Origin: an uncultured Ralstonia sp.
Lineage (GTDB): Bacteria > Pseudomonadota > Gammaproteobacteria > Burkholderiales > Burkholderiaceae
Assembly (NCBI GenBank): GCA_913056305.1
Contig: CAJXMR010000010.1
Coordinates: forward strand, 1 to 58,208
Length of the DNA: 58,208 nt
Direction: 5' to 3'
A model generated the notes under the pieces. The model was not told where the DNA came from. It was given only the letters and a program-made list of their open reading frames with translations, and searched no databases. The first letter of the stretch is position 1; every line of letters begins with the position of its first letter. This document shows positions 16,419 to 34,432 of the stretch, piece by piece. The position numbers and the translations under genes were made by a program.

Positions 16419-16443
16419 GCTGCCGCGGGCTCAGCGCGGCAGC
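16419..16443. terminator. Convergent hairpin after luxR1
   Basis: GCTGCCGCG and CGCGGCAGC form a 9-bp stem with a 7-base loop, between luxR1 and the converging lytic transglycosylase whose stop codon lies in the loop. No T run. Confidence 0.55.
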
Positions 16444-17216
16444 GCCATGCAGCGCAGGCACGATGCCCCGTCGGCGCGGTTGCAGGCGATGATCATGACC
16501 TGCCGGCTGTTCTGGCCGGTACAGGCACTCCCCGACAACATCTTGGGTGGATGACGCTGCGCCGGCTGCGCATTGCGCGCTGCCGGCGCGCCGCCGCCAT
16601 TGCCATTGGCCGGCACCACCGGGATCGGCTGCACGCCGCCCTGTGCGCCAGCCTCCGGTGCAATGGCCGGAACCTCGGCCGCATTGGCCACCACCTTCTG
16701 CACATAGCCGTGGCGGAAGCCGGTCTCGAAATTGCCGCTGTAGTAGCACGACAGCGCGGCGCGCAACGCCTGCTGCGGATCGCCATAACGCGGCAGCGAG
16801 CGGCTGAAGCACTCCGCCAGCAGGGTGCTGCCGGCACGCAGGTTGCGGCAGGCGTCGAAGGCGGACTCGATCGTTTCGCCAAAGCGCGCGAGGTTGTAGC
16901 GGTTGACCTGGCCGAGCCCGACGCTGAAGTTGTAGCCCTGGCGCTCCAGCGCGTGTGCGGTTGCCACGGCCTCTTCCAGTGTGGCGGGCTGGCGCGCCAG
17001 GCGCGTGCCGACCACGCCGATGGCGTACGGGTTGTAGGCCGATTCCGTGCGCACCAACGCCTCCAGCGTGACACGGTCGACGTGTGGCGCACAGGTGGCC
17101 GCCAGCGTGGCAAAGGTGCGCGCGTCGATGCGCGGGCCGGCGTGGGCCGACGTCGGCGGCAAGGCCATCGTCATGGCCAATGCAGCCGCCAGGAGCATAT
17201 GCAAGGCCGTTCGCAT
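16431..17216 (-). CDS. Lytic transglycosylase (VirB1-like), T3SS-associated
   Basis: 261 residues with a signal peptide (LLAAALAMTMALPPTSAHA). The transglycosylase fold shows catalytic Glu57 in LVRTESAYNPYAIGVVG, then NFSVGLGQVNRYNL, and ALSCYYSGNF near the end of the domain. Such enzymes open peptidoglycan so that secretion apparatus can pass the periplasm. It starts 4 bp after sctR, so it belongs to the minus-strand T3SS operon. The C-terminal tail after a Pro/Asn/Gly-rich linker carries several Cys (SACTG, IIACNR, SCLRCMAL), which is unusual and unexplained. Confidence 0.9.
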   Translation of the reverse strand: MRTALHMLLAAALAMTMALPPTSAHAGPRIDARTFATLAATCAPHVDRVTLEALVRTESAYNPYAIGVVGTRLARQPATLEEAVATAHALERQGYNFSVGLGQVNRYNLARFGETIESAFDACRNLRAGSTLLAECFSRSLPRYGDPQQALRAALSCYYSGNFETGFRHGYVQKVVANAAEVPAIAPEAGAQGGVQPIPVVPANGNGGGAPAARNAQPAQRHPPKMLSGSACTGQNSRQVMIIACNRADGASCLRCMALPR

Positions 17217-17220
17217 GGCG

Positions 17221-17880
17221 CTAGCGGTACGACAACACCAGCCCGTGGATCAGCACCGACCAGCCATCCAGCATCACGAACAGCAGCAGCTTGAACGGCA
17301 CCGAGATGGTGGTGGGCGAGATCATCTGCATGCCCAGCGCCAGCAGCAGGTTGGCCACCACCAGGTCCACCACCACGAAGACGATGTACAGCACGAAGCC
17401 GATCTGGAACGCCTTGATCAGCTCGGTGAGGGTGAAGCTGGGCACCAGCACGGTCAGGTCGTCGTTCTTGAGCGCGGCGGCGCGCTCCTTCGGCCAGATG
17501 CTGGTGGCGGACCTGACGAAGAAGTTGCGCTCCGACTCCAGCGTGTGCGCCTGCAGGAACTGCTTCACCGGCGGCTGTGCGGCGTCGACGATGGCGATCA
17601 CATCGTCCACGCCCATCTGGCCGCTCAGGTTGAAGTTGCGTCCGCGCAGGTTGTCGGCCATCTGCATGCCGACCGGCGCCATGATGAACACCGTGAGGAT
17701 CAATGCGATGCCGTTGAGCACGATGTTGGGCGGCACCTGCTGGATGCCCAGCGCCGAGCGCAGCAACCCGAACACGACCACCAGCTTGGTGTAGCTCGTC
17801 ACCATCAGCGCGGCAAACGGCGCGATGCCCAGCGCCGCGACCACGGCGATCATCGCTACGGGATTGGGTAGGTTCCCCAT
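17221..17880 (-). CDS. sctR: T3SS export apparatus protein SctR
   Basis: 219 residues, the normal length. It is a FliP/SctR-type protein with TSYTKLVVVFGLLRSALGIQ near the N-terminus and FTLTELIKAFQIGF before the two C-terminal membrane helices. SctR forms the core of the inner-membrane export gate with SctS and SctT. It is clearly of the secretion rather than the flagellar type from context. In most T3SS loci sctR, sctS, sctT and sctU are contiguous; here sctR is on the opposite strand, between sctQ and the transglycosylase. No internal change is seen. Confidence 0.95.
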   Translation of the reverse strand: MGNLPNPVAMIAVVAALGIAPFAALMVTSYTKLVVVFGLLRSALGIQQVPPNIVLNGIALILTVFIMAPVGMQMADNLRGRNFNLSGQMGVDDVIAIVDAAQPPVKQFLQAHTLESERNFFVRSATSIWPKERAAALKNDDLTVLVPSFTLTELIKAFQIGFVLYIVFVVVDLVVANLLLALGMQMISPTTISVPFKLLLFVMLDGWSVLIHGLVLSYR

Positions 17881-17905: not shown

Positions 17906-19057
17906 TCAGGCCGACTCCGATTGCGGCTCTGGCTCGGACAGCGGCTGGCCGATGAAGCGCGAGACCCGCACCCCGAGCCGGTTGCCGACGGCGATCAGAT
18001 GGCCTTCCCCCACCGGCATGCCGTTGGCAAGGATGCGTATGACTGCCTGGTTGAGCGGCTGCTCCAGCTCGAACACGGTGCCGGAGCGCAGCGCGCGCAG
18101 CTCCGCCAGCGACAGGCGGCGCTCCTCCAGCTCGAAGGTGGTCACCAGCTCGATGTCGTCCAGGCTGTCGGCGGGCAGCGGGCGCGAGGCGGGTTCAGCG
18201 GCGCTTTGATCGGCGCCTTGGGTGGCGCCCTGGGCGGGGGGCAGGTTGCTGCTTGTCATTGGGGTCTCCTCCACCTTTTCCACGACGATGCGGCTGCCTT
18301 GCACCAGGCCGAACACCCGCAGCCGCAGTTGGCCTCGCACACTGGCGACGCAGCGCAGGGCGGCGCCGGCAGGCATCCATTTCTCGATGCGCAGGATGTC
18401 GCCCAGGGCGATGGCCGCGAAATCCCGGCGCGACAGCAAGGTCCCGCCCAGTTCGAAGTGCAGCGGCACCGGCGCGCCCATGAACGCAGACAGCGGCAGC
18501 GGTGCGGCCTCCAGCGTGGCGGGGCAGTGCGCCACCAGCGTCTGCGGGTGGTCGAACAGCAGGCCGGCACGGGCCGACCAGGCAGTCGCACCAGGCGCGC
18601 TGTCTGCTGCGTCATCGGCAACGCCGGGCCGCGTGAGGGTGAGTTGCAGCACGTCGGGCCGGCCCAGGTGGATGTCGGCCGCGGCAGCCTCCGGCAGCCA
18701 TTGCACGGCCTGGCCGGTGCGCTGTTCCAGCGTTTGCGCGAGCGGTGCCAGCGCATCGGCCAGGACCGCGCTGCGCAATGCGTGCGGAATCTCCGCAGGG
18801 GCCGCATCACCCAGCCAGGCGCGCTCAGCTGCAGCGTCGAGCAGCAGCCAGCCGGCCGCGTCACCCAGCATCAGGCGATAGGCACGTGCCGCGGATGGCC
18901 CCGCATGCGCTTCGCAACGCGCCTCGTAGCCCACGTCATGCACCCGGAACGCCAGCGCCGCGCGACCCTGGTACAGGCGCGACAGCGTGCGGGCCAGCGC
19001 TTGGTCCACCGCGCAGAGGTGTGCGGCGGACAGCGTGTGGGCGTCGAGCGCATTCAT
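17906..19057 (-). CDS. sctQ: T3SS cytoplasmic ring protein SctQ
   Basis: 383 residues ending in a SpoA domain (FELEERRLSLAELRALRSGT, then VFELEQPLNQAVIRILANG and VGNRLGVRVSRFIGQ). SctQ builds the cytoplasmic sorting platform with SctK, SctL and SctN. The N-terminal half is divergent, as is usual, and contains an upstream SpoA-like part (LGGTLLSRRDFAAIALGDIL). ATG 19057 overlaps the stop of luxR2 by 4 bp, so the T3SS component is translated with its regulator. A shorter internal SctQ-C product is made in several families; an internal ATG in the region before the last domain (METPMTSSN-type context) could serve, but this is not proven. Confidence 0.88.
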   Translation of the reverse strand: MNALDAHTLSAAHLCAVDQALARTLSRLYQGRAALAFRVHDVGYEARCEAHAGPSAARAYRLMLGDAAGWLLLDAAAERAWLGDAAPAEIPHALRSAVLADALAPLAQTLEQRTGQAVQWLPEAAAADIHLGRPDVLQLTLTRPGVADDAADSAPGATAWSARAGLLFDHPQTLVAHCPATLEAAPLPLSAFMGAPVPLHFELGGTLLSRRDFAAIALGDILRIEKWMPAGAALRCVASVRGQLRLRVFGLVQGSRIVVEKVEETPMTSSNLPPAQGATQGADQSAAEPASRPLPADSLDDIELVTTFELEERRLSLAELRALRSGTVFELEQPLNQAVIRILANGMPVGEGHLIAVGNRLGVRVSRFIGQPLSEPEPQSESA

Positions 19058-19905
19058 GTCATCTGCATGCGGCCGGCCATGTAGGCGAGCTGCACGCGGT
19101 TCTGCGCGCCGTATTTTTTCTTGAGCTGGCGCAGGTGGTAGTCGACGTTGTGCGGCGACATGTTCAGGTGCTCGGCAATGGCCTTGTCCGACAGCCCGCT
19201 GGTGATGAATTCCAGGATCTGCCGCTGCACCAGCGTGAGGGTGCGCGCATGCGCATCGACGTGCAGCGGCTTGGCGTGCTGCATCAGAAATTCGTGCAGG
19301 CCCAGCCCGACGGCATAGGCCTGGCCGACCACGTTGTCGGCAATCCAACCGCGGGCGGCATTGCCGGAGCCGAAGCAGATCACGCTGTGCTCCAGGCTGT
19401 GCGGGCTGACCACGCCAAAGCTGACGCCGCTGCGCAGGCCGGCGCGCTCGGCGTCCTGCAGCAGGCGGTGCAGGCGTTCGCCTTCCGCCAGTGTGGTGGG
19501 GACCGTGCGCAGGTCGGTCAGGTCCCACACCAGCGGCCACTCGTAGCGCAGCGCGAAGGACAGGCGCGGGTCGATCTCGTAGTAGCGCTCGTCCACGTAG
19601 CGCTTGGGCCAGTTGGGCGGCGAGTAGGCGCGGAAATACATCACGCGGGTGATGGTCTGGCCGATGCGGGTCAGGCGGTAGTAGCACAACCAGTCGAAGC
19701 CGATGCTGCGCAGCACGGCGCGCAGCAGCAACTGCCGTTCCTGCGCGCTGCGTGCGGCACGCAAGTCCTGCGCCGTTTCGGAAAACGACTCCGGCCGGGC
19801 CGGGGCGCTGGCGCGGGCCAGGTCCCCATCGGTCACGATGTGTTCTTCGCCAAACAGGATCGGCATCTGGGCGGCACTACCGGCACCCACATTCGCTGCA
19901 CTCAA
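19054..19905 (-). CDS. LuxR-family regulator with autoinducer-binding-like domain (LuxR2)
   Basis: About 283 residues. The ligand-binding part shows FDWLCYYRL, YYEIDPRLSF, WPLVWDLTDL and GLRSGVSFG, equivalent to conserved pocket positions of LuxR/TraR. The helix-turn-helix is GLSDKAIAEHLNMSPHNVDYHLRQLKKKYG. The start is a choice: TTG 19905 has GGGAG 7 bases upstream, while ATG 19866 has no ribosome site. It heads the minus-strand operon luxR2-sctQ-sctR-transglycosylase and is divergent from sctV, so it very likely controls the secretion genes. No synthase gene is present, so it is a LuxR solo. Confidence 0.88.
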   Translation of the reverse strand: MSAANVGAGSAAQMPILFGEEHIVTDGDLARASAPARPESFSETAQDLRAARSAQERQLLLRAVLRSIGFDWLCYYRLTRIGQTITRVMYFRAYSPPNWPKRYVDERYYEIDPRLSFALRYEWPLVWDLTDLRTVPTTLAEGERLHRLLQDAERAGLRSGVSFGVVSPHSLEHSVICFGSGNAARGWIADNVVGQAYAVGLGLHEFLMQHAKPLHVDAHARTLTLVQRQILEFITSGLSDKAIAEHLNMSPHNVDYHLRQLKKKYGAQNRVQLAYMAGRMQMT

Positions 19906-19967
19906 CCGGGGTCTCCCGCGTCGCAATGGAATGCACTCACTGTAGTGGCGCAGGCGTGCCGTCTTGA

Positions 19968-20153: not shown

Positions 20154-22160
20154 ATGGCAAAGCCTCGGAATCTGGCAGCAGCGTTGGACTTTCCTCTCTC
20201 GGGTGCGCGCTGGGCGCGCCTGCTGAACTACGACATTGCGATCGCCGTGTTCGTGGTGGCGGTGGTGGCGCTGTTCGTGCTGCCACTGCCCACCGTGGTG
20301 CTCGACGGGCTGATCTCGCTCAACCTGGCCGCCAGCATCGTGCTGCTGTGCGTGTCGATGTACCTGCCTTCAGCGCTGGCGTTCTCGTCGTTTCCAGCGG
20401 TGCTGCTGTTCACGACGCTGTTCCGGCTGTCGCTGAACATCGCGTCATGCAAGCTGATCCTGCTGCAGGCCAACGCGGGCCACGTGATCGACACCTTCGG
20501 CAAGCTGGTGGTCGGCAACAACTTTGTGGTGGGCGGCGTGGTGTTCCTGGTGATTGCCGTCGTGCAGTTCATCGTGATCGCCAAGGGCTCGGAGCGCGTG
20601 GCGGAAGTGGGCGCACGGTTCTCGCTCGATGCCATGCCGGGCAAGCAGATGAGCATCGACGCCGATCTGCGCGCCGGCATCATCTCGTCTGACGAGGCCA
20701 AGCGCCGCCGCGAGGCGCTGGAACAGGAATCGCAACTGCATGGCGCGATGGACGGCGCCATGAAGTTCGTCAAGGGCGATGCCATTGCCGGCATCATCAT
20801 CGCGGCCATCAACATCCTGGCCGGGATTGCGGTGGGCGCGCTGATGCACGGCATGTCGATCGGCGATGCGCTGCACCGCTACGCGATCCTGACCGTGGGC
20901 GACGGCATGGCCTCGCAGATCCCGTCGCTGCTGGTGTCGATCGCGGCCGGCATCGTGACCACCCGCGTGGCCACGCGCGACCGCGACGCCCGCCACCTCG
21001 GCCAGCAGATCGGCGCGCAGATCTCCGCCCAGCCGCGCGGCCTGCTGATGGCCAGTGGCGTGCTGCTGGCGTTCCTGCTGGTGCCGGGGTTTCCGAAGTG
21101 GTCGTTCCTGTTGCTGGCCATCGGCACGGCCGGCGCGGCGCTGCTGCGCATGCGCCAGCGCCGGCAGACGCCACCGCTGGACCTGCTGGTGCTGGGGAGC
21201 GAAGCAGGGCAGGTCGCACCTGACGACGGCAGCTCGCCGTCCGAAGGCATTGCCGCCCCAATTGCCGTGCGGCTGGCCGACGACCTGCGCCGCGAGATCG
21301 ACCTGGTGGCGCTGCAGACCAAGCTGGCCGAGGCCAAGTCGCGCGTGCAGCGCAAGCTGGGCGCGGTGTTCCCCCGCGTGCAGCTGAATTGGGACGCCAC
21401 CTTGCCCAGCCACGGCTATGCGCTGCTCGTGCAGGACGTGTCGGCGGGCGGGGGCACCTTGCCCGAGCGCGATGCCATTCCCGCCGGTAGCGCGCCTTCG
21501 GAAGACCGCCTGGCGGCGGAGGTCGAAGCCCTCATCGCGCGTAACGCCGCAGCGCTGCTCGGCATCCAGGAGACGCAGAACCTGATCCAGCTGATGCGCC
21601 GCGAACACGGCGAGCTGGTGGCCGAACTCACACGCCTGGTGCCGCCGCAGCGCGTGACCGACGTGCTGCGCCGGCTGGTGCAGGAAGGCGTGTCGATCCG
21701 CAACCTGCGCGCCATCTTCGAGAGCTTGATCACGTGGTCGCCCAAGGAGCCGGACGATGTGATCGGCCTGGTGGAGCTGGTGCGCGTGGACTTGCGTCGG
21801 CAGATCACCGAGCAGTTCTGCGGGGCGGGCCGCGCGCTGGATGTGGTGCTGTTCGAGCAATCGTTGCAGGAGCGCATCGAGCAGGCCGTGGTGCACACCA
21901 AGCAGGGCAGCGTGCTGAGCCTGACACGCGAGGTTCGGCAGGCCGTGACCGACCAGGTGGTGAAGGCCGTGGGCGGCTCGCGCCCGAGCCCCACCGGCCC
22001 GAACGGCCATCCGCTGGCGGTCATGGTGTCGCTCAACTGCCGGCGCTACGTGAAGACGATGCTGCAGCCCGTCTTTGGCGATCTGCCGGTGCTGTCGTAC
22101 CAGGAGATCGACGAAGACGTCGAGCTCAAGACCGTGGGCTGGATCGTCAATCCGGCCTGA
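20154..22160 (+). CDS. sctV: T3SS export gate protein SctV
   Basis: 668 residues, normal for the FlhA/SctV family. The N-terminal half has seven or eight membrane helices and the FHIPEP-type signature region (FARFSLDAMPGKQMSIDADLRAG is the conserved part). The large cytoplasmic domain includes LRRLVQEGVSIRNLRAIFE. It forms the nonameric export gate that receives substrates. It is the first gene of the long plus-strand T3SS operon. No strong ribosome site precedes ATG 20154, which may limit translation; the start fits the family N-terminus. Confidence 0.95.
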   Translation: MAKPRNLAAALDFPLSGARWARLLNYDIAIAVFVVAVVALFVLPLPTVVLDGLISLNLAASIVLLCVSMYLPSALAFSSFPAVLLFTTLFRLSLNIASCKLILLQANAGHVIDTFGKLVVGNNFVVGGVVFLVIAVVQFIVIAKGSERVAEVGARFSLDAMPGKQMSIDADLRAGIISSDEAKRRREALEQESQLHGAMDGAMKFVKGDAIAGIIIAAINILAGIAVGALMHGMSIGDALHRYAILTVGDGMASQIPSLLVSIAAGIVTTRVATRDRDARHLGQQIGAQISAQPRGLLMASGVLLAFLLVPGFPKWSFLLLAIGTAGAALLRMRQRRQTPPLDLLVLGSEAGQVAPDDGSSPSEGIAAPIAVRLADDLRREIDLVALQTKLAEAKSRVQRKLGAVFPRVQLNWDATLPSHGYALLVQDVSAGGGTLPERDAIPAGSAPSEDRLAAEVEALIARNAAALLGIQETQNLIQLMRREHGELVAELTRLVPPQRVTDVLRRLVQEGVSIRNLRAIFESLITWSPKEPDDVIGLVELVRVDLRRQITEQFCGAGRALDVVLFEQSLQERIEQAVVHTKQGSVLSLTREVRQAVTDQVVKAVGGSRPSPTGPNGHPLAVMVSLNCRRYVKTMLQPVFGDLPVLSYQEIDEDVELKTVGWIVNPA

Positions 22161-22194: not shown

Positions 22195-22470
22195 ATGACC
22201 GCCGCCATTCTCGAAACCACGCGCCAGGGGCTGCTGCTCGTGCTGCTGGTGTCGCTGCCGGTGGTGGCGGTGGCGACGGTATCGGCGTTGCTGATTGCCA
22301 TCGCGCAGGCGGTGACGCAGATCCAGGATCAGAGCATCGGCATGTCGGTGCGGCTGATCGCGGTGATGGTGACGATCGTGGTGCTGGCGGGCTGGGGTGG
22401 GCGCGAGGTCTTGCGTTTTGCCCGCATGGCACTGGAGCAGGTGTTTTACGGCGGTGCGGCGCCCTTCTAG
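22195..22470 (+). CDS. sctS: T3SS export apparatus protein SctS
   Basis: 91 residues with two membrane helices (GLLLVLLVSLPVVAVATVSA and SVRLIAVMVTIVVLAGW), and the conserved AIAQAVTQIQDQSI stretch of FliQ/SctS proteins. ATG 22195 has AGAGGAA upstream. SctS packs with SctR and SctT in the export gate. It follows sctV by 34 bp and is separated from sctR, which is on the other strand. Confidence 0.94.
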   Translation: MTAAILETTRQGLLLVLLVSLPVVAVATVSALLIAIAQAVTQIQDQSIGMSVRLIAVMVTIVVLAGWGGREVLRFARMALEQVFYGGAAPF

Positions 22471-22521: not shown

Positions 22522-24381
22522 GTGAACAAGCGCAAGCGTTTTCTGAAATGGAGTGCATCGGTGGCCTGCATCGGGCTGCTGGCTTATGTGGCGACGACGG
22601 CTGTGGCGCAGGCAGCCGACCTGCACTGGCGCAACCGGCCTTTCACGCTGGTGGCCGAAGGCAAGAAGGTGGGCGATTTCATTCGCGAGCTGGCCGCCTC
22701 GCAGGGCGTGACGGCGGTGGTGGACCCGAAGGTGGAGGGCACCATCAACGGCAAGTTTTCCGGCTCGCCGGCCGGCACGCTCAACACCGTGTGCGCCACC
22801 TATGGCCTGACGTGGTACTACGACGGCTCGCTCATCTACGTGGATCGCGCCGACGACGCGCAGACGCAGGTCTTCCCCATCCCCAAGGGCAGCGGGCCGG
22901 AGCTGACGCAGATCCTGCGCGTGATGCAGATCACCGACCAGCGCTTTCCGCTGATGATCAGCGACAAGGAGAACACCGTCTACGTGTCGGGCCCCAAGCG
23001 CTACGTGGAGCTGGTGCGGCAGGCGATTGCGTCGATTGCCGATCCGGCGCGTGGGGCGGATCGCGCAGAGATCCGCGCCTTCCCGCTCAAGTACGCCTGG
23101 GCCGGCGACGTCGAGATCAACCGCTCCGGCAAGCCGGTCAGCATTCCGGGCATTGCGACCATGCTGCGCCGGTTGCTGGGCGCGCCCAACATGGCCGCCG
23201 GCAGCGCGGGAAGCTCCGGCTCGAACGCGATGCGCCTGACCGGGCCCACGCGTCAGGTCAAGCTCAGCTCGGGCGACAGCATCAATGTGCCGCGCATCGA
23301 GATTCCGCTGGCCGGCGGGCAGGACAGCAGCTACGGTGCGCCAGCCATGGCGACAGCCAGCAGCACACCTTCGGACCTGCCGCGCATCGAGGCGGATGCC
23401 GGCATCAACGCCGTGCTGATCCGCGACGTGCCGGAGCACATGGCGCAGTACGAGCGGCTAATCGCCTCGCTGGACGCCAAGCCGCGCCTGGTCGAGATCA
23501 ACCTGACCATCATCGACATCAGCACGGATTCGCTCGATTCACTGGGCGTGGACTGGCGCCTGCACACCACGCACGGCGATTTCCAGTACGGCAACGCCAA
23601 CAACCCGCCGCTCACCTTCAACGTTGGCAGCACGGAAGCCGGCCAGACCGGCAGCACCACGCCGCTGGGCTTGGCGCTGACGGCATCCATCGGCGGCAGC
23701 CTGCGCAACTACCTGCTCGCGCGCATCAACGCGCTCACACAGAGCGGCAACGCGCAGCTGCAGGCCAAGCCCAAGGTGCTGGCGCTGGACAACACCGAGG
23801 CCATCCTCGAGAACCTGATCCACTTCTACGTGCCGGTGTCGGGCTTCCAGGATGCGTCGCTGTACGGCATCACCACCGGCACCAGCGTGAAGGTGACGCC
23901 CCTGATCGTGAGCGAAGCCGGCCAGATGAGCGTGATGATGTCGATCGACATCGACGACGGCAACCTGACCAACGACCAGGTCTCGCAGCTGCCGGTGGTG
24001 CAGGAGCGCTCCATCGTCACCAAGGCGATGATCGAGGAGGGCAAGAGCCTGCTGATTGCCGGCTTCAATTCGGACAGCCTGAACAACACCAAGTCGGGCA
24101 TCCCGCTGCTGTCTGACGTGCCCTTTATCGGCAACCTGTTCAAGTACACCAACAAGACCGGCCAGCACATGGAGCGCTTCTATCTGCTGACCCCGCGCAT
24201 CCTGACCACGGCCAGCACCAGCCCGGCGGAGGTGCCGGCTGTGTCGATCCCCGGGGTGAGCCCGCCGGTGCCCTCGCCCGCAGCGCCGGCAGCACCTGCG
24301 GGCGCCGCCGTGCCCGGCACGCTGCCGACGCCTCCCGTGTCGAGACTGCATGAACCCGTCCATCGCACCCGCCTCGGATAG
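22522..24381 (+). CDS. sctC: T3SS outer-membrane secretin SctC
   Basis: 619 residues starting GTG 22522, with a signal peptide (WSASVACIGLLAYVATTAVAQA). N-terminal ring domains follow (RNRPFTLVAEGKKVGDFIRE), then the secretin domain (NAQLQAKPKVLALDNTEAIL, VSQLPVVQERSIVTKAMIEEG, SGIPLLSDVPFIGNLFKY). It forms the outer-membrane pore. No pilotin-binding tail is evident; the C-terminus is a Pro/Ala-rich stretch. It overlaps sctD by 32 bp. It shares the normal order with SctD of the B. cenocepacia-type locus. Confidence 0.94.
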   Translation: MNKRKRFLKWSASVACIGLLAYVATTAVAQAADLHWRNRPFTLVAEGKKVGDFIRELAASQGVTAVVDPKVEGTINGKFSGSPAGTLNTVCATYGLTWYYDGSLIYVDRADDAQTQVFPIPKGSGPELTQILRVMQITDQRFPLMISDKENTVYVSGPKRYVELVRQAIASIADPARGADRAEIRAFPLKYAWAGDVEINRSGKPVSIPGIATMLRRLLGAPNMAAGSAGSSGSNAMRLTGPTRQVKLSSGDSINVPRIEIPLAGGQDSSYGAPAMATASSTPSDLPRIEADAGINAVLIRDVPEHMAQYERLIASLDAKPRLVEINLTIIDISTDSLDSLGVDWRLHTTHGDFQYGNANNPPLTFNVGSTEAGQTGSTTPLGLALTASIGGSLRNYLLARINALTQSGNAQLQAKPKVLALDNTEAILENLIHFYVPVSGFQDASLYGITTGTSVKVTPLIVSEAGQMSVMMSIDIDDGNLTNDQVSQLPVVQERSIVTKAMIEEGKSLLIAGFNSDSLNNTKSGIPLLSDVPFIGNLFKYTNKTGQHMERFYLLTPRILTTASTSPAEVPAVSIPGVSPPVPSPAAPAAPAGAAVPGTLPTPPVSRLHEPVHRTRLG

Positions 24382-25546
24382 ATCGCCCTGGAAGCTGTGC
24401 TTCCTGAGCGGGCCGCTGTATGGGCGGGCCATGCCGCTGCGCATGGGCACGAATGTGGTCGGCTCGGCGCCCACCTGCGAAATCATCGTGCCCGACAGCA
24501 GCGTGGCGCCGCGCCAGCTGATGTTCGACGTGGGGGGGATCGCCGTGTCGGTACGGCGGCTGGAGGAGGGCGCTGCCGCGCTCAATGGCGAGGCGTTTGG
24601 TGACACGCGCCGTAGCGTGGTGCCGGGGGACGTGATCACGCTGGGCGCCATCCGCATCGGCATCGAGCGGGCCGGGACCATCCGCATGCCAACCGTAGCA
24701 GCCGAAGGTGTGCGTGCGCAGGCCACGGCCGCCGAGCACTTGCCGTCATGGCTGCCGGCGGCGGCGGCGCGGTGGGTGGCGCGCTGGTCGGGCAAGGCGG
24801 GGCGCGGCCGCACGTGGTTGTTTGCCGGCATCGCGTTGTGGCTGGCGGTGGCGCTGGCCGGCGGCATGGTCGCCTTTGCGGGGCCTGATGGGTGGTCGGG
24901 TTGGTCGATCTGGGGCCGAGATCCGGCCGCACGGGCGCAGCAGGTGCGCCACGCGCTGGGCGACCCCGCGGAGATTGCCGTGGCACCCGCCACCGACGGC
25001 ACGTTGCGTGTGACCGGCTACGTGCCGACCGAGCCGGACCGCGAGGCGCTGCTGGCCCGAGCGCGCGCCATGACGGAGGTGTCCGTGGGCGAGGTGTACG
25101 TGGTGAGTGAGTTGCTGGCGGCCGCGCAGCAGTACTTCAGCGCCGGCGGGACGAGCGGCACGGCGGGCCTGAGCGTGGCGTATGGCGGGCAGGGCCGCAT
25201 CGTGGTGAGCGGCACCGCCGACCGCGCACAGGCCTGGCAGCGCATCCGCAACTATGCGCGCGATGCCAGGCCGGCGGTGGAGGTGGTCGATCGTGTGGCG
25301 TGGGATGGCCCCGCGCCACCCACGGTGGTGGTGGAAACGCCGCGCGCCGACGGCCTGCCCGCCATCGTCGGCACGTACGAAGACGAAGACGGCACGCGCT
25401 TCGTGCAGACCAAGGACGGCCAACTGTATTTCGAGGGCGCCCGCGTCAAGGGCGACCTGCAGGTCAAGAGCATCGCTTCCGATGGTGTGGTGCTCGATCG
25501 CGGCGGGCAATCGGTCAATTGGCCGGTCCAGCCGCAAACACCGTAG
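24350..25546 (+). CDS. sctD: T3SS inner-membrane ring protein SctD
   Basis: 398 residues. An FHA-like N-terminal domain faces the cytoplasm (GPLYGRAMPLRMGTNVVGSA, then SCEIIVPDSS-type FHA loop). One membrane segment (WLFAGIALWLAVALAGGMVA, about residues 163-183) is followed by BON-like ring modules in the periplasm (RVTGYVPTEPDREALLARA and RIVVSGTADRAQAW). SctD with SctJ forms the inner-membrane ring and contacts SctC. It overlaps sctC at the 5' end, which suggests coupled translation. Confidence 0.92.
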   Translation: MNPSIAPASDRSPWKLCFLSGPLYGRAMPLRMGTNVVGSAPTCEIIVPDSSVAPRQLMFDVGGIAVSVRRLEEGAAALNGEAFGDTRRSVVPGDVITLGAIRIGIERAGTIRMPTVAAEGVRAQATAAEHLPSWLPAAAARWVARWSGKAGRGRTWLFAGIALWLAVALAGGMVAFAGPDGWSGWSIWGRDPAARAQQVRHALGDPAEIAVAPATDGTLRVTGYVPTEPDREALLARARAMTEVSVGEVYVVSELLAAAQQYFSAGGTSGTAGLSVAYGGQGRIVVSGTADRAQAWQRIRNYARDARPAVEVVDRVAWDGPAPPTVVVETPRADGLPAIVGTYEDEDGTRFVQTKDGQLYFEGARVKGDLQVKSIASDGVVLDRGGQSVNWPVQPQTP

Positions 25547-25673: not shown

Positions 25674-25877
25674 ATGGCAACAGCACCTACCGGCGTCGAC
25701 GGCGCCATCGGCAGCATCAACCAATCGTCCGCAGACCAGATGAAGATCGCGCAGGCCACGCAGGCCGCCTCTGCCATCAACACGGCGGCCAACGCCATGA
25801 TCGGCGCGGCGGAGTCGCAGAACCGTACGTCGGCTGCGGCTGCCGGCGCCATTCGCGACGGCGCCCGCGCCAGCTGA
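25674..25877 (+). CDS. 67-residue T3SS-linked small protein, candidate needle/pilin SctF
   Basis: 67 residues, about one third Ala, with no Cys, His or aromatic residue and an almost entirely helical, heptad-like pattern. ATG 25674 has AGGAG 7 bases upstream. The position just before sctI and sctJ corresponds to that of hrpA in Pseudomonas syringae, where the Hrp pilin is encoded. No other needle or pilin candidate is present in the locus. The sequence does not show the PrgI/YscF signature, so the assignment is by position, size and composition only. Confidence 0.6.
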   Translation: MATAPTGVDGAIGSINQSSADQMKIAQATQAASAINTAANAMIGAAESQNRTSAAAAGAIRDGARAS

Positions 25878-25945: not shown

Positions 25946-26494
25946 ATGTCGATCGAAACCCAAGCCATCGCGGCGGTGGCCGCCACGCAGGCTGGCGCGG
26001 CACCGGCCAGTGGTGTCCAGGTAGCTGGCCACGCGCAGTCGAACCCGGCGGCGCAAGCCGCGCAAGGCGGCGGGCATGTCGAGCAGGGCGCCGGCATGCC
26101 GTCCGCGCAGGCCGCGCACGCGCCGGACGCCGCCCAGTTCAACGGCATGATGCGTCCCGACGTGGCCACCGCGCAGCCCACCAGCGCCGTGCCCACGACA
26201 GCGCACACCCAGGAGGCCGCCTTCACCTTCACGCGTGGCCCCGGAGCGGATGGCGCCATGGCGCAATGGCGCGACTACGGGCGCGACCTCAACCAGCGCT
26301 ACACCAGCATCAACGCCAAGCGCCAGGAGATGCTCGACTCGCTCGACAAGACCGACGTGACCATGACGATGGTCAAGCTGGCCGATTTCAGCTATTTCGC
26401 CTCCATGACGCTGGCCGAATACCAGATGGACATGAGCTTCGCCCAGGCCGCCAACGGCGTGAGCCATTCGCTGCTGAAGAACCAGGACAGCTGA
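25946..26494 (+). CDS. sctI: T3SS inner rod protein SctI
   Basis: 182 residues. The N-terminal 90 are Ala/Gln/Pro-rich and low in complexity. The C-terminal part (MLDSLDKTDVTMTMVKLADF, then ASMTLAEYQMDMSFAQAANG and VSHSLLKNQ) fits the YscI/HrpB-type rod protein end, which polymerises inside the base. CAGGAGGGA precedes ATG 25946. It is directly followed by sctJ (1 bp apart), the usual I-J order. It is longer than average rod proteins because of the N-terminal extension. Confidence 0.82.
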   Translation: MSIETQAIAAVAATQAGAAPASGVQVAGHAQSNPAAQAAQGGGHVEQGAGMPSAQAAHAPDAAQFNGMMRPDVATAQPTSAVPTTAHTQEAAFTFTRGPGADGAMAQWRDYGRDLNQRYTSINAKRQEMLDSLDKTDVTMTMVKLADFSYFASMTLAEYQMDMSFAQAANGVSHSLLKNQDS

Positions 26495-26495: not shown

Positions 26496-27257
26496 ATGAA
26501 GCGATTGCTGGGAGTGCTGCTCGCGCTGGCGTGCCTGTTCGGGCTCGCGGGGTGCGAGCAGGAGCTGTACACCGGCTTGTCCGAGCCGGAAGTCAACGAG
26601 ATGGTGGCCGCGCTGTCGTCCGCGGGCATCAGCGGCCAGAAGGTCGCGCAGGACGGGCAGGACGCCCGCACCTGGACGCTCACGGTCGACAACGCCGACA
26701 TGTCTGCCGCCCTGGCCACCCTGCGCGCGCAAGGGCTGCCGCACCCGCATCTGGCCTCGCTGGGCGAGGTGTTCCAGAAGCAGGGGCTGGTCGCCACACC
26801 GGCGGAGGAGCGTGTGCGCTACATCTACGGCATCTCGCAGGAGCTCTCGCGCACGCTGCTCGACGTGGAAGGCGTAATGCTGGCGCGCGTGCACGTGGTG
26901 ATTCCGGAAAACGACCCGCTGGGCGACAAGGTCAAGCCGGCCTCGGCGGCGGTCTACATCCGCTACCGGCCGGGGGTGAACCTGACCGCCATGGCGCCGA
27001 TGGTGAAGGACCTCGTCGCCCACAGCATCGAGGGGCTGAGCTACGACAATGTGTCGCTGTTCCTGCAGGGCGTGCAGCCCGTGCCGGTGGAGCCGCGCAA
27101 GGGCGTGGCGCTGCTGGGCACGTTCAGCACGCGCAACCCGCTGGTCTGGTTGCTGGGGCTACTGATCGTGGCGGCGGTGGTCGTGACCGGGCTGGTGGCC
27201 TGGCGGCGCGGTGCCTTCGATACGCTCACGGCCCGGCGCGAGAGGCCGGCGGCATGA
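26496..27257 (+). CDS. sctJ: T3SS inner-membrane ring lipoprotein SctJ
   Basis: 253 residues with a lipobox (LLALACLFGLAGC), then a ring domain (LYTGLSEPEVNEMVAALSSAG) and a second module (RVRYIYGISQELSRTLLDVE, then VMLARVHVVIPENDP, with SAAVYIRYRPG). It ends with a membrane helix (LVWLLGLLIVAAVVVTGLVA). This is the standard SctJ plan. It overlaps sctK by 4 bp. SctJ is built into the inner-membrane ring together with SctD. Confidence 0.95.
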   Translation: MKRLLGVLLALACLFGLAGCEQELYTGLSEPEVNEMVAALSSAGISGQKVAQDGQDARTWTLTVDNADMSAALATLRAQGLPHPHLASLGEVFQKQGLVATPAEERVRYIYGISQELSRTLLDVEGVMLARVHVVIPENDPLGDKVKPASAAVYIRYRPGVNLTAMAPMVKDLVAHSIEGLSYDNVSLFLQGVQPVPVEPRKGVALLGTFSTRNPLVWLLGLLIVAAVVVTGLVAWRRGAFDTLTARRERPAA

Positions 27258-27916
27258 GTCTCGCTGGGCGCCTGGCTGGCCTGGTGGCCACGTTCAACCT
27301 GCGGCCCGATCGGTATATCGATCCGTCGTGGCTGCCCATGGAGTGGCCGGCGCACCTGCGCGACCCCGCCCGCTATGGCGAGGCCGGGCGCGCCGTGCTG
27401 GCGCGCGCGCTGCTGCAGGCACACGGGTTGGATGCGACGCGCGATTACGATTTCAGCACCGCAGAAAAGCGCATCGCGCTGTTGCCGGCCGATGCGCTCG
27501 AACACCTGGCCGCCTGCTGCGGCCTCTGCCTGCACCGGCAGTGGCTGCGCGAGGCCGAGGTGTCGCACAAGATGCAGCAGGTCATCGACACGGCCTTTGG
27601 CGCGGACGCCGTGACGTTCGTGCTCTATCGCATGCCGGCCTTCGATGCGGTGAGCGAGATCCTGGAGCCGCAGCGGCAGTACCCGCGCCTGGCGGTGCAG
27701 ACGCTGCGCGCGCGCGGGCGCCAACTGCTGCTGGACTTCCTGCAGCCTTATGGGCCAGCGGTCGGCCGGCGGCTCGCACTCAAATTCCCCCGGGGCGGGG
27801 CCGATGGACACCGCCCGCCCTATCTGCTGGGCCGCACGCAGCGCGCAGAACTGGGCGAGCTGCTGCGCCTGAGCTTGATTCCTGAACAGGTACCGGCATG
27901 GGACTGGCTTTTCTGA
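27254..27916 (+). CDS. sctK: T3SS sorting-platform protein SctK
   Basis: 220 residues with no membrane helix. The N-terminal RPDRYIDPSWLPMEWP and central LHRQWLREAEVSH stretch agree with the YscK/SctK family, a component linking SctD to SctQ. ATG 27254 overlaps sctJ (ATGA), and the 3' end overlaps sctL by 19 bp. The position between sctJ and sctL supports the assignment, as sequence conservation in this family is low. Confidence 0.82.
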   Translation: MSLAGRLAGLVATFNLRPDRYIDPSWLPMEWPAHLRDPARYGEAGRAVLARALLQAHGLDATRDYDFSTAEKRIALLPADALEHLAACCGLCLHRQWLREAEVSHKMQQVIDTAFGADAVTFVLYRMPAFDAVSEILEPQRQYPRLAVQTLRARGRQLLLDFLQPYGPAVGRRLALKFPRGGADGHRPPYLLGRTQRAELGELLRLSLIPEQVPAWDWLF

Positions 27917-28503
27917 TCACCACCGACAAGCTGCAGATCCTGAGTGAGCGCAAAGTGCTCAAGCAGCACGAATACGCCGCGCTGCTCAACGCCACCAGCA
28001 TCCTGACCAACGCGCAGCAGGAGCGCACGCGCCTGCTGGATGAGGCCCGCGCGCAATGCGAGACGCAGCAGCGCGAGGGCTTCGCGGCAGGCTTTGCCAA
28101 AGGCGAACTGGAGGCCGCCACGCGGTTGTACGCCGACACGCTGGCCAACGCCCGCGCCCTGGCGGCCATGAAACAGCTGATGGCCGAGCTGGTCACGCGC
28201 ACGGTGCGCGAGCTGGCGGATGACCTGCCGCGCGACGCCATCTACGCCAAGGCGTTTGCCCGCCTGGAGGCGCTGATCGAACAGGAGCCCGCGCTGACGG
28301 TGCGCATCGCGCCGCCGCGCGTGGCCGATGTCGAGCGCGCGCTGGCGACGGTCGCCACCGCCACGCAGCGCATCCGCATCGTGCCCGACGCCTCGCTGCG
28401 CGACGACGCCCTGGCGGTGGAGACAGCATCCGGCGTGCTGGAGGCCGGCATCGACACGCAGCTGGCCGCGTTGCGCGCGGCCATCGTCGGAGCGCCGGCA
28501 TGA
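27898..28503 (+). CDS. sctL: T3SS ATPase stator SctL
   Basis: 201 residues starting MGLAFLITTDKLQILSERKV, with a helical coiled-coil middle (RTRLLDEARAQCETQQREGF, then AAGFAKGE, typical for FliH/SctL) and a C-terminal domain. SctL holds the ATPase SctN and links it to SctQ. It overlaps sctK by 19 bp and sctN by 4 bp. Confidence 0.9.
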   Translation: MGLAFLITTDKLQILSERKVLKQHEYAALLNATSILTNAQQERTRLLDEARAQCETQQREGFAAGFAKGELEAATRLYADTLANARALAAMKQLMAELVTRTVRELADDLPRDAIYAKAFARLEALIEQEPALTVRIAPPRVADVERALATVATATQRIRIVPDASLRDDALAVETASGVLEAGIDTQLAALRAAIVGAPA

Positions 28504-29867
28504 GCCAGGCCACCACCCGTCACGCCATCGACCAGGCCGACCTGGAGCGCAGCCTGCGCGACGTGCTGGAGCGGCAGGATGGCCTGGGGGGGCTGGGCGC
28601 CGGTGTGCGGATGCGCGGGCGCATCCACCGCGCGGTGGGGCTGATGCTCAACGCCTCGGGCATCCAGGCGCGGCTGGGCGAGGTGTGCGAGCTGCGCACC
28701 CCCGGCGAGCGCAGCGTCTACGCCGAGGTGGTCGGCTTTGAGCGGCAGACCACGCTGCTCACACCGCTGGGCGGCGTGCATGGCCTGTCGGCGGCCACCG
28801 AGGTGATTCCCTCTGGCAGCGCGCATCGATTCGGGGTGGGGGATGCGTTGCTCGGGCGCGTGATCGACGGCCTGGGTGCGCCCATGGATGGCGGCGGCCC
28901 GGTGTTTGCCACCGAGCGCGCGTCTACCCATGCCGAGCCGCCCAGTCCCTTGTCCCGTCGCCGCATCGAGACGGCGCTTTCCACCGGCGTGCGCGCCATC
29001 GACGCCATGCTGACGGTGGGCGTGGGGCAGCGCCTGGGGATCTTCGCGCCGCCGGGCGTGGGCAAAAGCACGCTGCTGGGCATGATTGCGCGCGGCGCGC
29101 AGAGCGACGTCAACGTGATCGCCCTGATTGGCGAGCGCGGCCGGGAGGTGCGCGAATTCCTGGAGCTGTGCCTGCCGGAGGCCACGCGGCGCAAGACGGT
29201 GTTGGTGGTCTCCACCTCCGACCGGCCCGCCATGGAGCGCGTGAAGAGCGCGATGGTGGCCACTGCCGTGGCCGAGTACTTTCGCGACCGCGGCAAGAAC
29301 GTGCTGCTGCTGGTCGATTCGCTCACGCGCTTTGCCCGTGCGCAGCGCGAGGTCGGCCTGGCCAGTGGCGAGCCGCCGACGCGGCGCAGCTTCCCGCCGT
29401 CCACGTTCTCGGTGCTGCCGCAGTTGCTGGAGCGCGCGGGCGCCGGCGCCCAGGGCGTCATCACGGCCTTCTACACCGTGCTGGTGGAGGGCGACGAAGA
29501 GAGCGACCCGATTGCCGAAGAGGTGCGCTCCATCCTTGACGGGCACATCGTGCTGTCGCGCAAGCTGGCGCTGGCGGGGCGCTATCCGGCCATCGACCTG
29601 CTGGCGAGCATCAGCCGCGTGATGCCGCTGGTGACGACGCCCGCGCACCGGGCAAGCGCGCAGCGGGTGCGGGAGCTGATGGCGAAATACCAGGAGATCG
29701 AATTGCTGGTGCAGATTGGTGAATACCGCCAGGGCAGTGATGCGCTGGGCGATGTCGCGCTGCGCGCTCACGCGGCGCTTGGCCGCTTCTTCGAGCAGGA
29801 CACGGACGCGCACCATCCGCTGGATGGCACGGTGTCAGACCTGCGCGCGCTGGTGGAATCACTATGA
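28500..29867 (+). CDS. sctN: T3SS ATPase SctN
   Basis: 455 residues. Walker A APPGVGKST lies at residues 183-191, and Walker B is VLLLVDSLTRFARAQRE. LIGERGREVREF and GQRLGIF are typical of FliI/SctN ATPases. SctN strips chaperones and unfolds substrates at the base. All catalytic motifs are intact and length is normal. It overlaps sctL and sctO by 4 bp each. Confidence 0.96.
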   Translation: MSQATTRHAIDQADLERSLRDVLERQDGLGGLGAGVRMRGRIHRAVGLMLNASGIQARLGEVCELRTPGERSVYAEVVGFERQTTLLTPLGGVHGLSAATEVIPSGSAHRFGVGDALLGRVIDGLGAPMDGGGPVFATERASTHAEPPSPLSRRRIETALSTGVRAIDAMLTVGVGQRLGIFAPPGVGKSTLLGMIARGAQSDVNVIALIGERGREVREFLELCLPEATRRKTVLVVSTSDRPAMERVKSAMVATAVAEYFRDRGKNVLLLVDSLTRFARAQREVGLASGEPPTRRSFPPSTFSVLPQLLERAGAGAQGVITAFYTVLVEGDEESDPIAEEVRSILDGHIVLSRKLALAGRYPAIDLLASISRVMPLVTTPAHRASAQRVRELMAKYQEIELLVQIGEYRQGSDALGDVALRAHAALGRFFEQDTDAHHPLDGTVSDLRALVESL

Positions 29868-30355
29868 GCGATGTCCTGCACCAGCTCGCGCGGGTGCGGC
29901 AGGCGCGCAAGCTCAGTGCCGTGGCACGGGCGCGACGCCAGGCCGCGGTTGTTGCCCAGGCCGAGCAGCGCGGCGCGGCGGCCTGGCAGGGCCTGCAGCA
30001 ATCGGTGTCGGCCAAATCGGCCTACGACGCGGCCATCGGCGAGGCGGTGCAACAGGACGCGCGCACCGCGGTGGCGCTGCTGCACGGCGCCAATGCCGAG
30101 CGCCTGGCCCTGCAGCGCGAGATTCTGCAGGCGCACGCCGAATCGACACACGCCACCACGGTCCTGCTGAGCGAACACGCCGAGCAGGCGCGCGTGCAGA
30201 AGCTGGTGGCAGGTGCCAATGCCAAGTGCGAGGCGGTGGATCGCGTGACACAGCGTGCGGTGCAAGCGGCGCGCCGCGCGCAGGCGCTGCAGGAAGAGGA
30301 CGCCGCGCTCGAGGCGCTGCAGGCGCTGCAAGCGCGCCGGGCCGCGCGCCCCTAG
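29864..30355 (+). CDS. sctO: T3SS stalk protein SctO
   Basis: 163 residues, almost wholly helical coiled coil (LARVRQARKLSAVARARRQA near the N-terminus), like FliJ/YscO. SctO sits in the centre of the ATPase ring and contacts SctV. Assignment rests on position after sctN, length and coiled-coil character, since the family diverges strongly. No sctP gene follows: sctT starts 6 bp later. Confidence 0.82.
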   Translation: MSDVLHQLARVRQARKLSAVARARRQAAVVAQAEQRGAAAWQGLQQSVSAKSAYDAAIGEAVQQDARTAVALLHGANAERLALQREILQAHAESTHATTVLLSEHAEQARVQKLVAGANAKCEAVDRVTQRAVQAARRAQALQEEDAALEALQALQARRAARP

Positions 30356-30361: not shown

Positions 30362-31162
30362 ATGCAAGGTTACGACTCCGCCGCGATGGAAGGGCTGTTC
30401 CGGCAAGCGCTGCTGGTGCTGCCGCGCCTGCTGCCGATCCTGTTCATGGTGCCGGTGTTCAGCGGGCGTGTGGTCACGGGCATGGTGCGCAGCGGCCTGA
30501 TCGCCATCCTCGCGGTGTTCGTTGCCCCCGCCATGGAGGGCACGGCGCTCACGGTGCAGGGCGGCGGGCTGTGGATGGCGCTGGCGTTGAAGGAGGCGCT
30601 GATCGGCGTGCTGCTGGGCATGGCCTTTGGCGCGCTGCTGTGGGCACTGGAGAACATCGGCCACCTGATCGATTTCCAGACCGGCTCGGGCAATGCGTCG
30701 TTCTTCGATCCGGTGGCCGGGCATGAGAGCGGCGCTACCGCCAGCTTTCTCGGCTTTCTGGCGATCACGCTGTTCGTGACCGGCGGTGGGCTGCACGTCA
30801 TGCTGGGCGCGTTCTTCGAGTCCTACGCGCTGTGGCCGGTGGAGCGCATGTTGCCCAGCGCGCAGGCGGCGCTGGAGCAGTTTGCCGTGCACGAAGCCGA
30901 CAGCGTCATGAGCTGGACCGTCAAGCTGGCCGCGCCCGTGATCATCGTGCTGGTGGTGGCCGAAGCCGGCATTGGCCTGATCAACCGCGCGGTGCCGCAG
31001 CTCAACGTCTTCCTGTTTGCGCAGCCCGTGAAGAGCCTGCTGGCGGTGCTGATGATGGTGCTGTTTCTCGGCTTCGTGTTCGAGTCGTTGAAGACCTTCC
31101 TCAGCAGCAACGGCGAGATGGTCTGGCTGTTGCGCGCGCTGCTGCACAGCCCCGCCTCATGA
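30362..31162 (+). CDS. sctT: T3SS export apparatus protein SctT
   Basis: 266 residues with about six membrane helices (RLLPILFMVPVFSGRVVTGM, LIGVLLGMAFGALLWALENI, FLGFLAITLFVTGG, APVIIVLVVAEAGIGLINRA). DFQTGSGNASFFDPVAG matches the conserved region of FliR/SctT. SctT closes the inner end of the export channel with SctR and SctS. It overlaps sctU by 4 bp (ATGA). Confidence 0.95.
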   Translation: MQGYDSAAMEGLFRQALLVLPRLLPILFMVPVFSGRVVTGMVRSGLIAILAVFVAPAMEGTALTVQGGGLWMALALKEALIGVLLGMAFGALLWALENIGHLIDFQTGSGNASFFDPVAGHESGATASFLGFLAITLFVTGGGLHVMLGAFFESYALWPVERMLPSAQAALEQFAVHEADSVMSWTVKLAAPVIIVLVVAEAGIGLINRAVPQLNVFLFAQPVKSLLAVLMMVLFLGFVFESLKTFLSSNGEMVWLLRALLHSPAS

Positions 31163-32226
31163 GCGAGAAGCAACACAAGCCCACGCCGCGGCGCCTGCAG
31201 GACGCGCGCCGCGAGGGGGAGGTGGTCCGCAGCGCAGACGTGGGCGGCACGCTGGTGTTCATCGGCGTGCTGGCGCTGCTGTGGCAGGGTGGGCCGTACC
31301 TGATCGAGCGGCTGCGCGGGCTATTGCTGGGGGCCGTTGGTGCAGCGGCGCGGGCACGCGACCCGGGGGCGGTGTTGCAGCAGGTGCTGGTGTCAGCCGG
31401 GGCCACGTGGATGATGGTGGCGGCGAGCGTGGCGTTGCTGGTCATCCTGCTGGCTGTGGCCGGCGCGTTTGCGCAGGTGGGCGGCCTGTTCGCGCCCAAG
31501 CGTGTGGCGCCGCAGCTGTCGCGGCTCAATCCGGCACAGGGGCTGCAGCGGGTGTTCTCGGTGCGCAACCTGGTCGCGCTGGCCATGATGTTGCTCAAGG
31601 TCGGTTGCCTGGCGCTGGTGCTGGTTACGGTGGTCCGCGGTTCGCTCTCGGCGCCGCTGCAGGCGGGTTATGGCCGGCCTGCGGCGGTGCTGGCGGTGGC
31701 TGCGCATCTGGTGCTGATGTTGTTTGGCTGGGCGGCCGTGGTGTACGTCGTCATGGCCGCCATCGATTACTGGCACGTGCGGCATGAGTTCCTCAAGAAG
31801 AACCGCATGTCGACCGAGGAGCTGCGGCGCGAACACCGCGAGATGCAGGGCGATCCACACATCGCCTCGCGGCGGCGGCAGCTGGCCCGGGAGGCCCAGT
31901 ACAGCGCGCTGGAAGACCGCATGCGCATCGCCACGGCGGTGGTGTTCAGCCCGCGCCATGCGGTGGCGCTGTACTACCCGGGTGATGACACCCTGCCGAT
32001 GGTGATCGCCAAGGCCAGCGGCGAGGCGGCGGAGCGCATGCGCCGCATGGCCGAACGCCATCTCGTGCCGACCGCCGCCAATGCCGGCCTGGCCGAGCGC
32101 CTGCACGACACGGTGCCCATGGACACCAGCATCAGCCGCACGCTGTTCCGCGACGTGGCGGCACTGCTGCGCTGGGCCGAGGGGGATCAAGCGGTCGGCA
32201 CGCCCTACGTGGCATCCAAGTCGTGA
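31159..32226 (+). CDS. sctU: T3SS switch protein SctU lacking the NPTH motif
   Basis: 355 residues, normal length. The N-terminal KPTPRRLQDARREGEVVRSA and four membrane helices are typical of FlhB/SctU, as is RMSTEELRREHREMQGDPHI before the cleavage region. At the autocleavage site the family has NPTH; here residues 264-267 read SPRH (VVFSPRHAVALYY). The Asn that cyclises and the Thr are both replaced, so self-cleavage is unlikely by the known mechanism. The rest of the C-terminal domain, including TLPMVIAKASGE, is intact. No frameshift or stop is seen. It is the last gene of the operon. Confidence 0.95.
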   Translation: MSEKQHKPTPRRLQDARREGEVVRSADVGGTLVFIGVLALLWQGGPYLIERLRGLLLGAVGAAARARDPGAVLQQVLVSAGATWMMVAASVALLVILLAVAGAFAQVGGLFAPKRVAPQLSRLNPAQGLQRVFSVRNLVALAMMLLKVGCLALVLVTVVRGSLSAPLQAGYGRPAAVLAVAAHLVLMLFGWAAVVYVVMAAIDYWHVRHEFLKKNRMSTEELRREHREMQGDPHIASRRRQLAREAQYSALEDRMRIATAVVFSPRHAVALYYPGDDTLPMVIAKASGEAAERMRRMAERHLVPTAANAGLAERLHDTVPMDTSISRTLFRDVAALLRWAEGDQAVGTPYVASKS

Positions 32227-32381
32227 TGGCGGGTGAGGCGGGGGCGAATGTCGTATCTCCGCATTGCGCCGCACGCGGATGACCGCTGCTGAATTTGGTG
32301 GGGGGTGGCTTGCGCCCGGGCACAGCGGCGCCCAGAATGCGCCATCATTGAACCGGCTGGCGAGCACACAAGGGACACGGC

Positions 32382-33335: not shown

Positions 33336-34250
33336 TTAGAAGATCGACCGGCCGCTGAGCGTGGTCAGCCATTCGAGCGCCTGCAGCCCCGCCAGCGAAT
33401 TGCCGCTGACATCCAGCCCCGGCGACCACACGCACACGCCAAACTCGCCCGGCAGCACGGCCACGATGCCGCCGCCCACGCCGCTCTTGGCCGGCAGGCC
33501 GACGCGGTAAACGAAATCGCCGGCGGCATCGTACGTGCCGCAGGTCAGCATCAGTGCGGATAGCCGCTTGGCGGGGCTGGCTTCGATCACGCGCTCGCCG
33601 CTCCACGGCACCACGCCGCCGTTGGCGAGGAAGAGCACGGCACGTGCAAGATCCACGCAATGCATCTCGATGGCGCATTGCCGGCAGTAGGCGTCGATGA
33701 CCGTCTCGACAGGCATCTGCAGGTTGCCGAAGCTGCGCATGAAGTGCGCCATGGCGCGGTTGCGGTCCGCATGGTCCCGCTCCGATTGCGCCACGCGCGG
33801 GTCGTAGTCGATCGCGCCGTTGCCGACCAGCCGGCGCATGAACTGCACCATGGCGGTCTCGGCCTGCACGAAGCGGCGGCACAGCACGTCGGTCACCACC
33901 AGCGCGCCGGCATTGATGAAGGGGTTGCGCGGGATGCCGTTCTCGTATTCGAGCTGCACCAGCGAGTTGAATGCATTGCCGGATGGCTCGCGTCCCACGC
34001 GCTGCCACAGCGATTCGCCTTCGAGCTGGAAGGCTAGGGTGCACGCAAACAGCTTGGAAATACTCTGGATGGAAAACGGCACCTCGGCCTGCCCGACGCG
34101 ATAGACATCGCCACCCAGGGTGACGATGGCCATGCCGAAATCGCTGGCGCTGGCGCGGGCCAGCTCCGGAATGTAGTCGGCCACGCGGCCCTTGCCCAGC
34201 AACGGCTGGATGTCGCGCTGGATGGTTTCCAGGATGCCTTGGTAGTCCAT
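33336..34250 (-). CDS. glsA: Glutaminase (beta-lactamase-like fold)
   Basis: 304 residues, normal for GlsA/YbaS. Catalytic Ser63-x-x-Lys66 is in [13 protein letters not shown]. Other family hallmarks are [26 protein letters not shown] and [13 protein letters not shown]. It hydrolyses L-glutamine to glutamate and ammonia in the cytoplasm. ATG 34250 is used as the fold begins at [10 protein letters not shown]; a longer frame upstream has no ribosome site. It is divergent from the DUF1445 gene, and both could connect to glutamate metabolism. Confidence 0.95.
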
Positions 34251-34399: not shown

Positions 34400-34432
34400 C
34401 CACCGCACGATCAACTCGGCAATGGAAAGCGC

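Follow-up and report, generated by a model that had tools for sequence, protein, structure and literature searches.

The window analysed here, a stretch of 58,208 nucleotides from an uncultured Ralstonia sp. (contig CAJXMR010000010.1, positions 1 to 58,208), carries a type III secretion (injectisome) gene cluster whose last plus-strand gene, sctU, encodes an export switch protein of the SctU/FlhB family that lacks the NPTH self-cleavage motif of that family. The gene and the motif site are as follows:

31159..32226, plus strand: sctU, export switch protein without NPTH, 355 aa (open reading frame [ORF] translation, PF01312 match)
31948..31959, plus strand: codons of Ser264-Pro-Arg-His267, at the place of NPTH (translation; alignment to solved YscU domains)
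31948..31950, plus strand: codon AGC of Ser264, the sole loop residue fixed in the clade of relatives described below (83/83)

Re-reading the frame 31159-32226 bears out the initial annotation, which had placed SPRH at residues 264-267 in an otherwise intact protein. The motif context is VVF-SPRH-AVALYY, the protein gives a full-length match to Bac_export_2 (PF01312, residues 3-339, E 9.6e-83), and its cytoplasmic domain aligns from end to end with those of YscU, EscU and FlhB whose structures are solved; the top NCBIfam match is SctU TIGR01404, at 281 bits and thus below the curated cut-off of 358. The site not only reads SPRH but is also one residue shorter than NPTHx, as in all 83 clade members, so that the register depends on the alignment: phmmer sets S-P-R-H under N-P-T-H with the gap after it, and MAFFT sets the gap inside. 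Because Asn and Thr are both gone, cyclisation of Asn at an Asn-Pro bond cannot happen, as the initial annotation had argued and as both the motif reading and the alignment agree.

The extent of the loss was assessed among full-length copies, leaving out matches that do not span query residues 10-325 and merging proteins whose first 335 residues are the same (186 reduced to 173). Asn-Pro is missing, and the loop is one residue shorter, in 83/83 distinct SctU proteins (42.6-100% identity) of a clade comprising the Burkholderia cepacia complex, Paraburkholderia, Trinickia, Variovorax and the window's own genus, whereas Asn-Pro is present in 90/90 other SctU/FlhB proteins, 72 of which read NPTH. 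It is likewise kept in 20/20 further SctU/FlhB proteins, the most divergent search matches included; these 20, like 19 of the 25 other copies in clade genomes given below, may overlap the 90. Searching 398 genomes of the family gave 77 sites in 74 genomes at 43-100% identity, with the next matches at or below 37%; the motif was read at all 77, at one via an identical twin, and Asn-Pro occurs at none (0/77). Named genomes of the clade include Burkholderia dolosa, catarinensis, anthina, territorii and arboris, three Paraburkholderia, Trinickia soli and six Variovorax. The motif loss is thus fixed in every clade copy read, and since all 83 distinct relatives share it, it is no error or one-off. 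A sequencing or assembly error had been entertained and was rejected, as the motif is also missing in six same-genus orthologues and the whole clade.

The initial annotation had raised the question of whether SPRH is common to the whole Burkholderia-type group. The loss of NPTH is (83/83), but the letters are not: all six same-genus orthologues (76-77% identity, from a search of 101 genomes, the window's own included) read SARH, the Pro is found in 36/83, and the last motif letter is most often Val (46/83). What the clade has in common is Ser plus a one-residue deletion. Thirteen clade genomes hold 41 SctU/FlhB matches, 16 of them NPTH-less, and Asn-Pro is present in all 25 other copies, two of them from the divergent matches above and one the FlhB-like protein of the genome to which the window belongs. 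That genome has only two PF01312 proteins, this SctU and one other with NPTH; no separately encoded FlhB-like C-terminus that might act in trans was found there, and this explanation was rejected. Three same-genus genomes, G003 (L008/L035), G011 (L007/L039) and G014 (L009/L037-L038), each have a pair of distinct NPTH-less sctU genes, one 76-77% and the other 46-47% identical to that of the window.

The NPTH-less clade has one origin. In a tree that leaves out the motif columns and samples the clade with 14 proteins and the rest with 69 (after thinning at 80% and 70% identity), the clade falls on one side of a single branch with SH-aLRT support of 100, in a reconstruction by a quick method with four long branches among the non-clade proteins, and one change explains the motif loss. 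The protein is under purifying selection, with dN/dS between the window SctU and its six orthologues of 0.18-0.22 over the whole protein and 0.11-0.14 over the cytoplasmic domain, the six being near copies of each other that amount to about one comparison rather than independent ones. Among the 63 columns that at least 80% of the 90 other proteins conserve, the clade has lost 11. Three belong to the motif: Asn is Ser in 83/83, Thr is deleted in 83/83, and His is replaced, in the MAFFT register, by Arg, Gln, Ser or Asn. At LARXLY the Arg is missing (0/83; Gln or Glu in most members), as is the Pro directly before LAR. The remaining losses are a Pro at 326, two residues near the N-terminus and, early in the cytoplasmic domain, three Lys, of which one is now Arg.

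All thirteen core sct genes are present in the window, SctO by position only. The plus strand is ordered sctV, S, C, D, the 67-aa ORF, sctI-like, J, K, L, N, sctO-like, T and U, and the minus strand holds luxR, sctQ, sctR and a lytic transglycosylase gene:

16431..17216, minus strand: lytic transglycosylase (SLT; profile match)
17221..17880, minus strand: sctR (profile match)
17906..19054, minus strand: sctQ, start not fixed (profile match)
19057..19926, minus strand: LuxR-type regulator with autoinducer-binding domain (profile match)
20154..22160, plus strand: sctV (profile match)
22195..22470, plus strand: sctS, 91 aa (TIGR01403 above cut-off)
22522..24381, plus strand: sctC secretin (profile match)
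24350..25546, plus strand: sctD (profile match)
25674..25877, plus strand: 67-aa ORF at the needle-gene place, candidate sctF (position; no convincing family match)
25946..26494, plus strand: sctI-like inner-rod gene, 182 aa, with FNGMM (FxxxPhi) (position and look of the C-terminus; no family match)
26496..27257, plus strand: sctJ (profile match)
27254..27916, plus strand: sctK (YscK PF06578, 51.8 bits)
27898..28503, plus strand: sctL (profile match)
28500..29867, plus strand: sctN ATPase (profile match)
29864..30355, plus strand: coiled-coil gene resembling sctO, flanked by sctN and sctT (position and look; family matches not significant)
30362..31162, plus strand: sctT (TIGR01401 above cut-off)
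32227..32381, no strand: 155-bp gap from sctU to a LysR gene, at the place where a giant gene stands beside sctU in 6/6 same-genus orthologue genomes

The order from sctV to sctU recurs in the 30 clade clusters compared, some of which are the same strain in two collections and several of which are cut by contig or stretch ends, and the group of sctQ, sctR and the transglycosylase gene stands at one end or the other. The 67-aa ORF at 25674-25877 is, by position, a candidate needle or pilus subunit gene (sctF), the gene that previous authors had failed to find in such clusters. In relatives the small ORF and the sctO-like gene gave a tblastn match in G009 only and were assigned by position in the other clusters. 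In other clade clusters viewed, the small ORF between sctD and sctI measures 66-85 aa if its start is unambiguous, and upstream starts lengthen it in others. Two LuxR-type regulators with autoinducer-binding domains (15146-16411 and 19057-19926) flank the minus-strand half of the cluster. Farther off, RND efflux genes lie at about 38400-42800, with similar genes on Cupriavidus and Azospirillum replicons among the matches listed.

This gene content matches that of the published Burkholderia cepacia complex injectisome (BCI; Wallner et al. 2021, PMC8565462), an assignment that we draw from taxa and gene content. The core genes, the LuxR-type regulator and lytic transglycosylase found in the window locus, the separation of sctQ and sctR from the main operon and the lack of a recognised sctF are all common to the two; the window SctU groups with copies from the cepacia complex, Trinickia, Paraburkholderia and Variovorax, the same taxa as the reported BCI host range. 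The family evidently works, since an insertion in sctV of the B. vietnamiensis BCI reportedly lowers rice-root colonization to 13% of wild type after 7 days and 0.75% after 14 (PMC8565462). The main text of that paper contains no occurrence of NPTH, cleavage, ruler or switch.

The window differs from the BCI type in missing the giant element that relatives carry: no large element (>10 kb) lies in its locus, and no relative of the giant gene was found in the window or in its genome (88% complete). In the six same-genus orthologue genomes sctU is adjoined by a giant gene of about 7.7 kb, and one linked ORF group of the giant gene touches 16/30 clade clusters, the protein near sctU being about 2,600 aa in G009 and up to 4,500 aa in others (examples of the gene are L033:11882-19663 and L197:5310-17159). 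Both of the two giant proteins scanned match DUF4781, one under the cut-off, and one also has D-glutamate cyclase-like and Asp/Glu racemase domains. Glutaminase and D-glutamate cyclase genes are found in the window at 33336-35296, just behind the LysR gene adjoining sctU.

Features associated with early substrates are retained. The early-substrate pocket of FlhB is formed by A286, P287, A341 and L344 (PMC13344023, PMC9307174), which correspond in the alignment to L279, P280, A334 and L337 of the window SctU; across the clade the four places hold Leu in 82/83, Pro in 83/83, Ala in 82/83, and Leu (68/83) or Met (15/83). An SctI-like gene occurs in 28/31 clusters, the window included, the other three being cut short, and in 28/28 of its products F-x-x-x-hydrophobic stands at the same alignment position, with at least two strains represented by two entries each. 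The corresponding flagellar motif, FxxxPhi, has been proposed to dock early subunits at FlhB (PMC4183434).

The ruler was sought with PF02120 (the FliK/SctP C-terminus) in the 13 clade genomes, with matches set against SctU positions and proximity taken as within 5 kb. No match lies near an NPTH-less sctU (0/16 loci), and where the two share a contig they are more than 500 kb apart. PF02120 matches, weak at 23-29 bits against a model cut-off of 29.8, lie within 5 kb of 8 of the 12 other injectisome SctU genes, a number that excludes one presumed flagellar, FlhB-like copy per genome. Each genome has one strong PF02120 match, taken as flagellar FliK, and some have further matches elsewhere.

We put at roughly 0.55 the probability that this is a cleavage-free machine, most simply one in early mode; BCI-type machines in general probably run without the usual cut-and-switch step. 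With Ser for Asn and one residue deleted, the SctU chain would stay uncut at Asn-Pro; because it is not cut there, the C-terminal subdomain with its early-substrate docking pocket would remain covalently bound to the export gate; and because there would be neither a cut nor a nearby FliK/SctP-like ruler gene to trigger a switch, export would proceed without one, most simply in early-substrate mode (inner rod, needle or pilus-like filament). From the sequences we thus infer no cleavage in the cell, permanent attachment and single-mode export. The lack of a nearby ruler match and the kept pocket favour the absence of a cleavage switch over another switching mechanism. In a 2026 flagellar model the gate is kept in early mode partly by the cleaved FlhB C-terminal domain, up to the point where FliK brings about the removal of that domain, which a covalent link would prevent (PMC13344023), and HrcU N264A is reported still to secrete early HrpB2 but not late substrates (PMC3040844). 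Because these two cases, applied by analogy, both point that way, the BCI would be predicted to stay in early mode.

Several points weigh against this interpretation. Uncleavable Yersinia YscU loses translocator but keeps effector export (PMC2615192, citing Sorg 2007), and hence an uncut protein is not always early-only. A HopBF1 effector-like domain has been reported in the B. cenocepacia giant neighbour protein (PMC12580581), which suggests late-type cargo and counts against strictly early-only export. The apparent absence of a ruler is read from one Pfam model whose positives here fall below cut-off, one of the 16 NPTH-less loci (G011:C270) is 2 kb from a contig end, and 4 of the 12 NPTH-bearing injectisomes also have no nearby match, so that motif loss and ruler loss are associated but not equivalent or strictly coupled. 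FxxxPhi is a weak motif, and its count of 28/28 comes from clade proteins. Finally, Ser264 is kept so strictly that it may have a role beyond filling the turn.

The best-surviving alternative, which we nonetheless regard as unlikely, is a constitutively switched SctU, in which the shortened loop and altered LARXLY face would mimic the post-cleavage surface and late-type cargo would pass without cut or ruler. Several of the lost columns do map to the loop and the LARXLY helix, the Tyr of which is close to the cut loop and is named as a ruler-bypass site in YscU/FlhB, where surface features rather than the cut itself may matter (PMC2615192). That Tyr is His in the window's genus (7/83), and relatives carry the giant, cargo-like neighbour gene. 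The Tyr is, however, retained in 73/83 clade members, the early pocket and the SctI signal are kept, and the window ORFs scanned included none recognisable as a translocator or gatekeeper. SctW (PF07201) and SctE-like (PF04888) matches number 0 in the 13 clade genomes and 0 in 14 control genomes as well, and so distinguish nothing.

Considerably less probable is a Ser-based self-cleavage, in which the invariant Ser264 would attack the preceding bond (an N-to-O acyl shift) and cut the chain between residues 263 and 264. Ser is the only fixed letter of the site and follows Tyr, His or Phe in 82/83. Its codons are TCN in 76/83 and AGY in 7/83, the window among the latter, and because the AGY lineage groups with the TCN member L035 inside the clade (SH-aLRT 93, below the mark of 95, with deeper order poorly supported), Ser was probably kept through a change of codon class. 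Other such self-cleaving proteins have HF-S and HL-T/S sites, with a base two residues upstream. No conserved base stands at that distance in the clade, and a small polar residue is just as well accounted for by a role in forming the turn.

A protease cut in trans, with the loop as nick site, is marginally more doubtful again: a section title has Spa40 N257A cleaving differently from the wild type, but the abstract of the same paper has the substitution preventing autocleavage (PMC3542141), and the BCI loop is short and, apart from Ser, variable across the clade. Least probable of all is a decaying, non-functional system, to which the lack of recognised translocators, effectors or needle and of the giant neighbour gene in an 88% complete genome might point, since the core genes are present and open, sctU is under purifying selection, the motif loss has one old origin and the BCI mutant has a phenotype (PMC8565462).

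A more far-reaching reading may be put tentatively, at somewhat under even odds: an entire, widespread injectisome family would either be an early-substrate-only exporter, a builder of surface filaments and not an injector, or use Ser-dependent self-cleavage at the same loop.

In comparison with the canonical proteins YscU, EscU, Spa40, HrcU and FlhB, the window SctU is alike in family, length, membrane part, cytoplasmic domain and early-substrate pocket, and differs in having no Asn-Pro, a loop one residue shorter, an altered LARXLY face and no nearby ruler match. The NPTH motif has been described as strictly conserved (PMC2615192), and substrate switching is said to require its cleavage (PMC7064499); a natural NPTH-less family contrasts with the former statement, and no report of natural NPTH loss was found in the literature searched (open-licence PMC papers, mostly titles and abstracts). 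The T3SS (type III secretion system) clusters described in B. cenocepacia, nine in number and not all necessarily BCI, resemble the clade in having a giant gene with DUF4781, the domain also found here, and are reported to be missing the regulatory genes SctP and SctW and the translocator genes; SctO is reported missing there too and the needle is proposed to lie outside the cluster, whereas the window has an sctO-like gene and a small ORF inside it (PMC12580581, in which NPTH has 0 occurrences). The uncleavable laboratory mutants FlhB N269A, HrcU N264A and Spa40 N257A share with the clade the loss of the motif Asn and of any possible Asn-Pro cleavage, but the clade is natural, of one old origin, and combines a loop deletion with co-changed neighbours. 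A natural NPTH-less family that is still important for root colonization is a ready test of the 2026 domain-removal model: if that model is true, the BCI machine should never leave early mode (PMC13344023).
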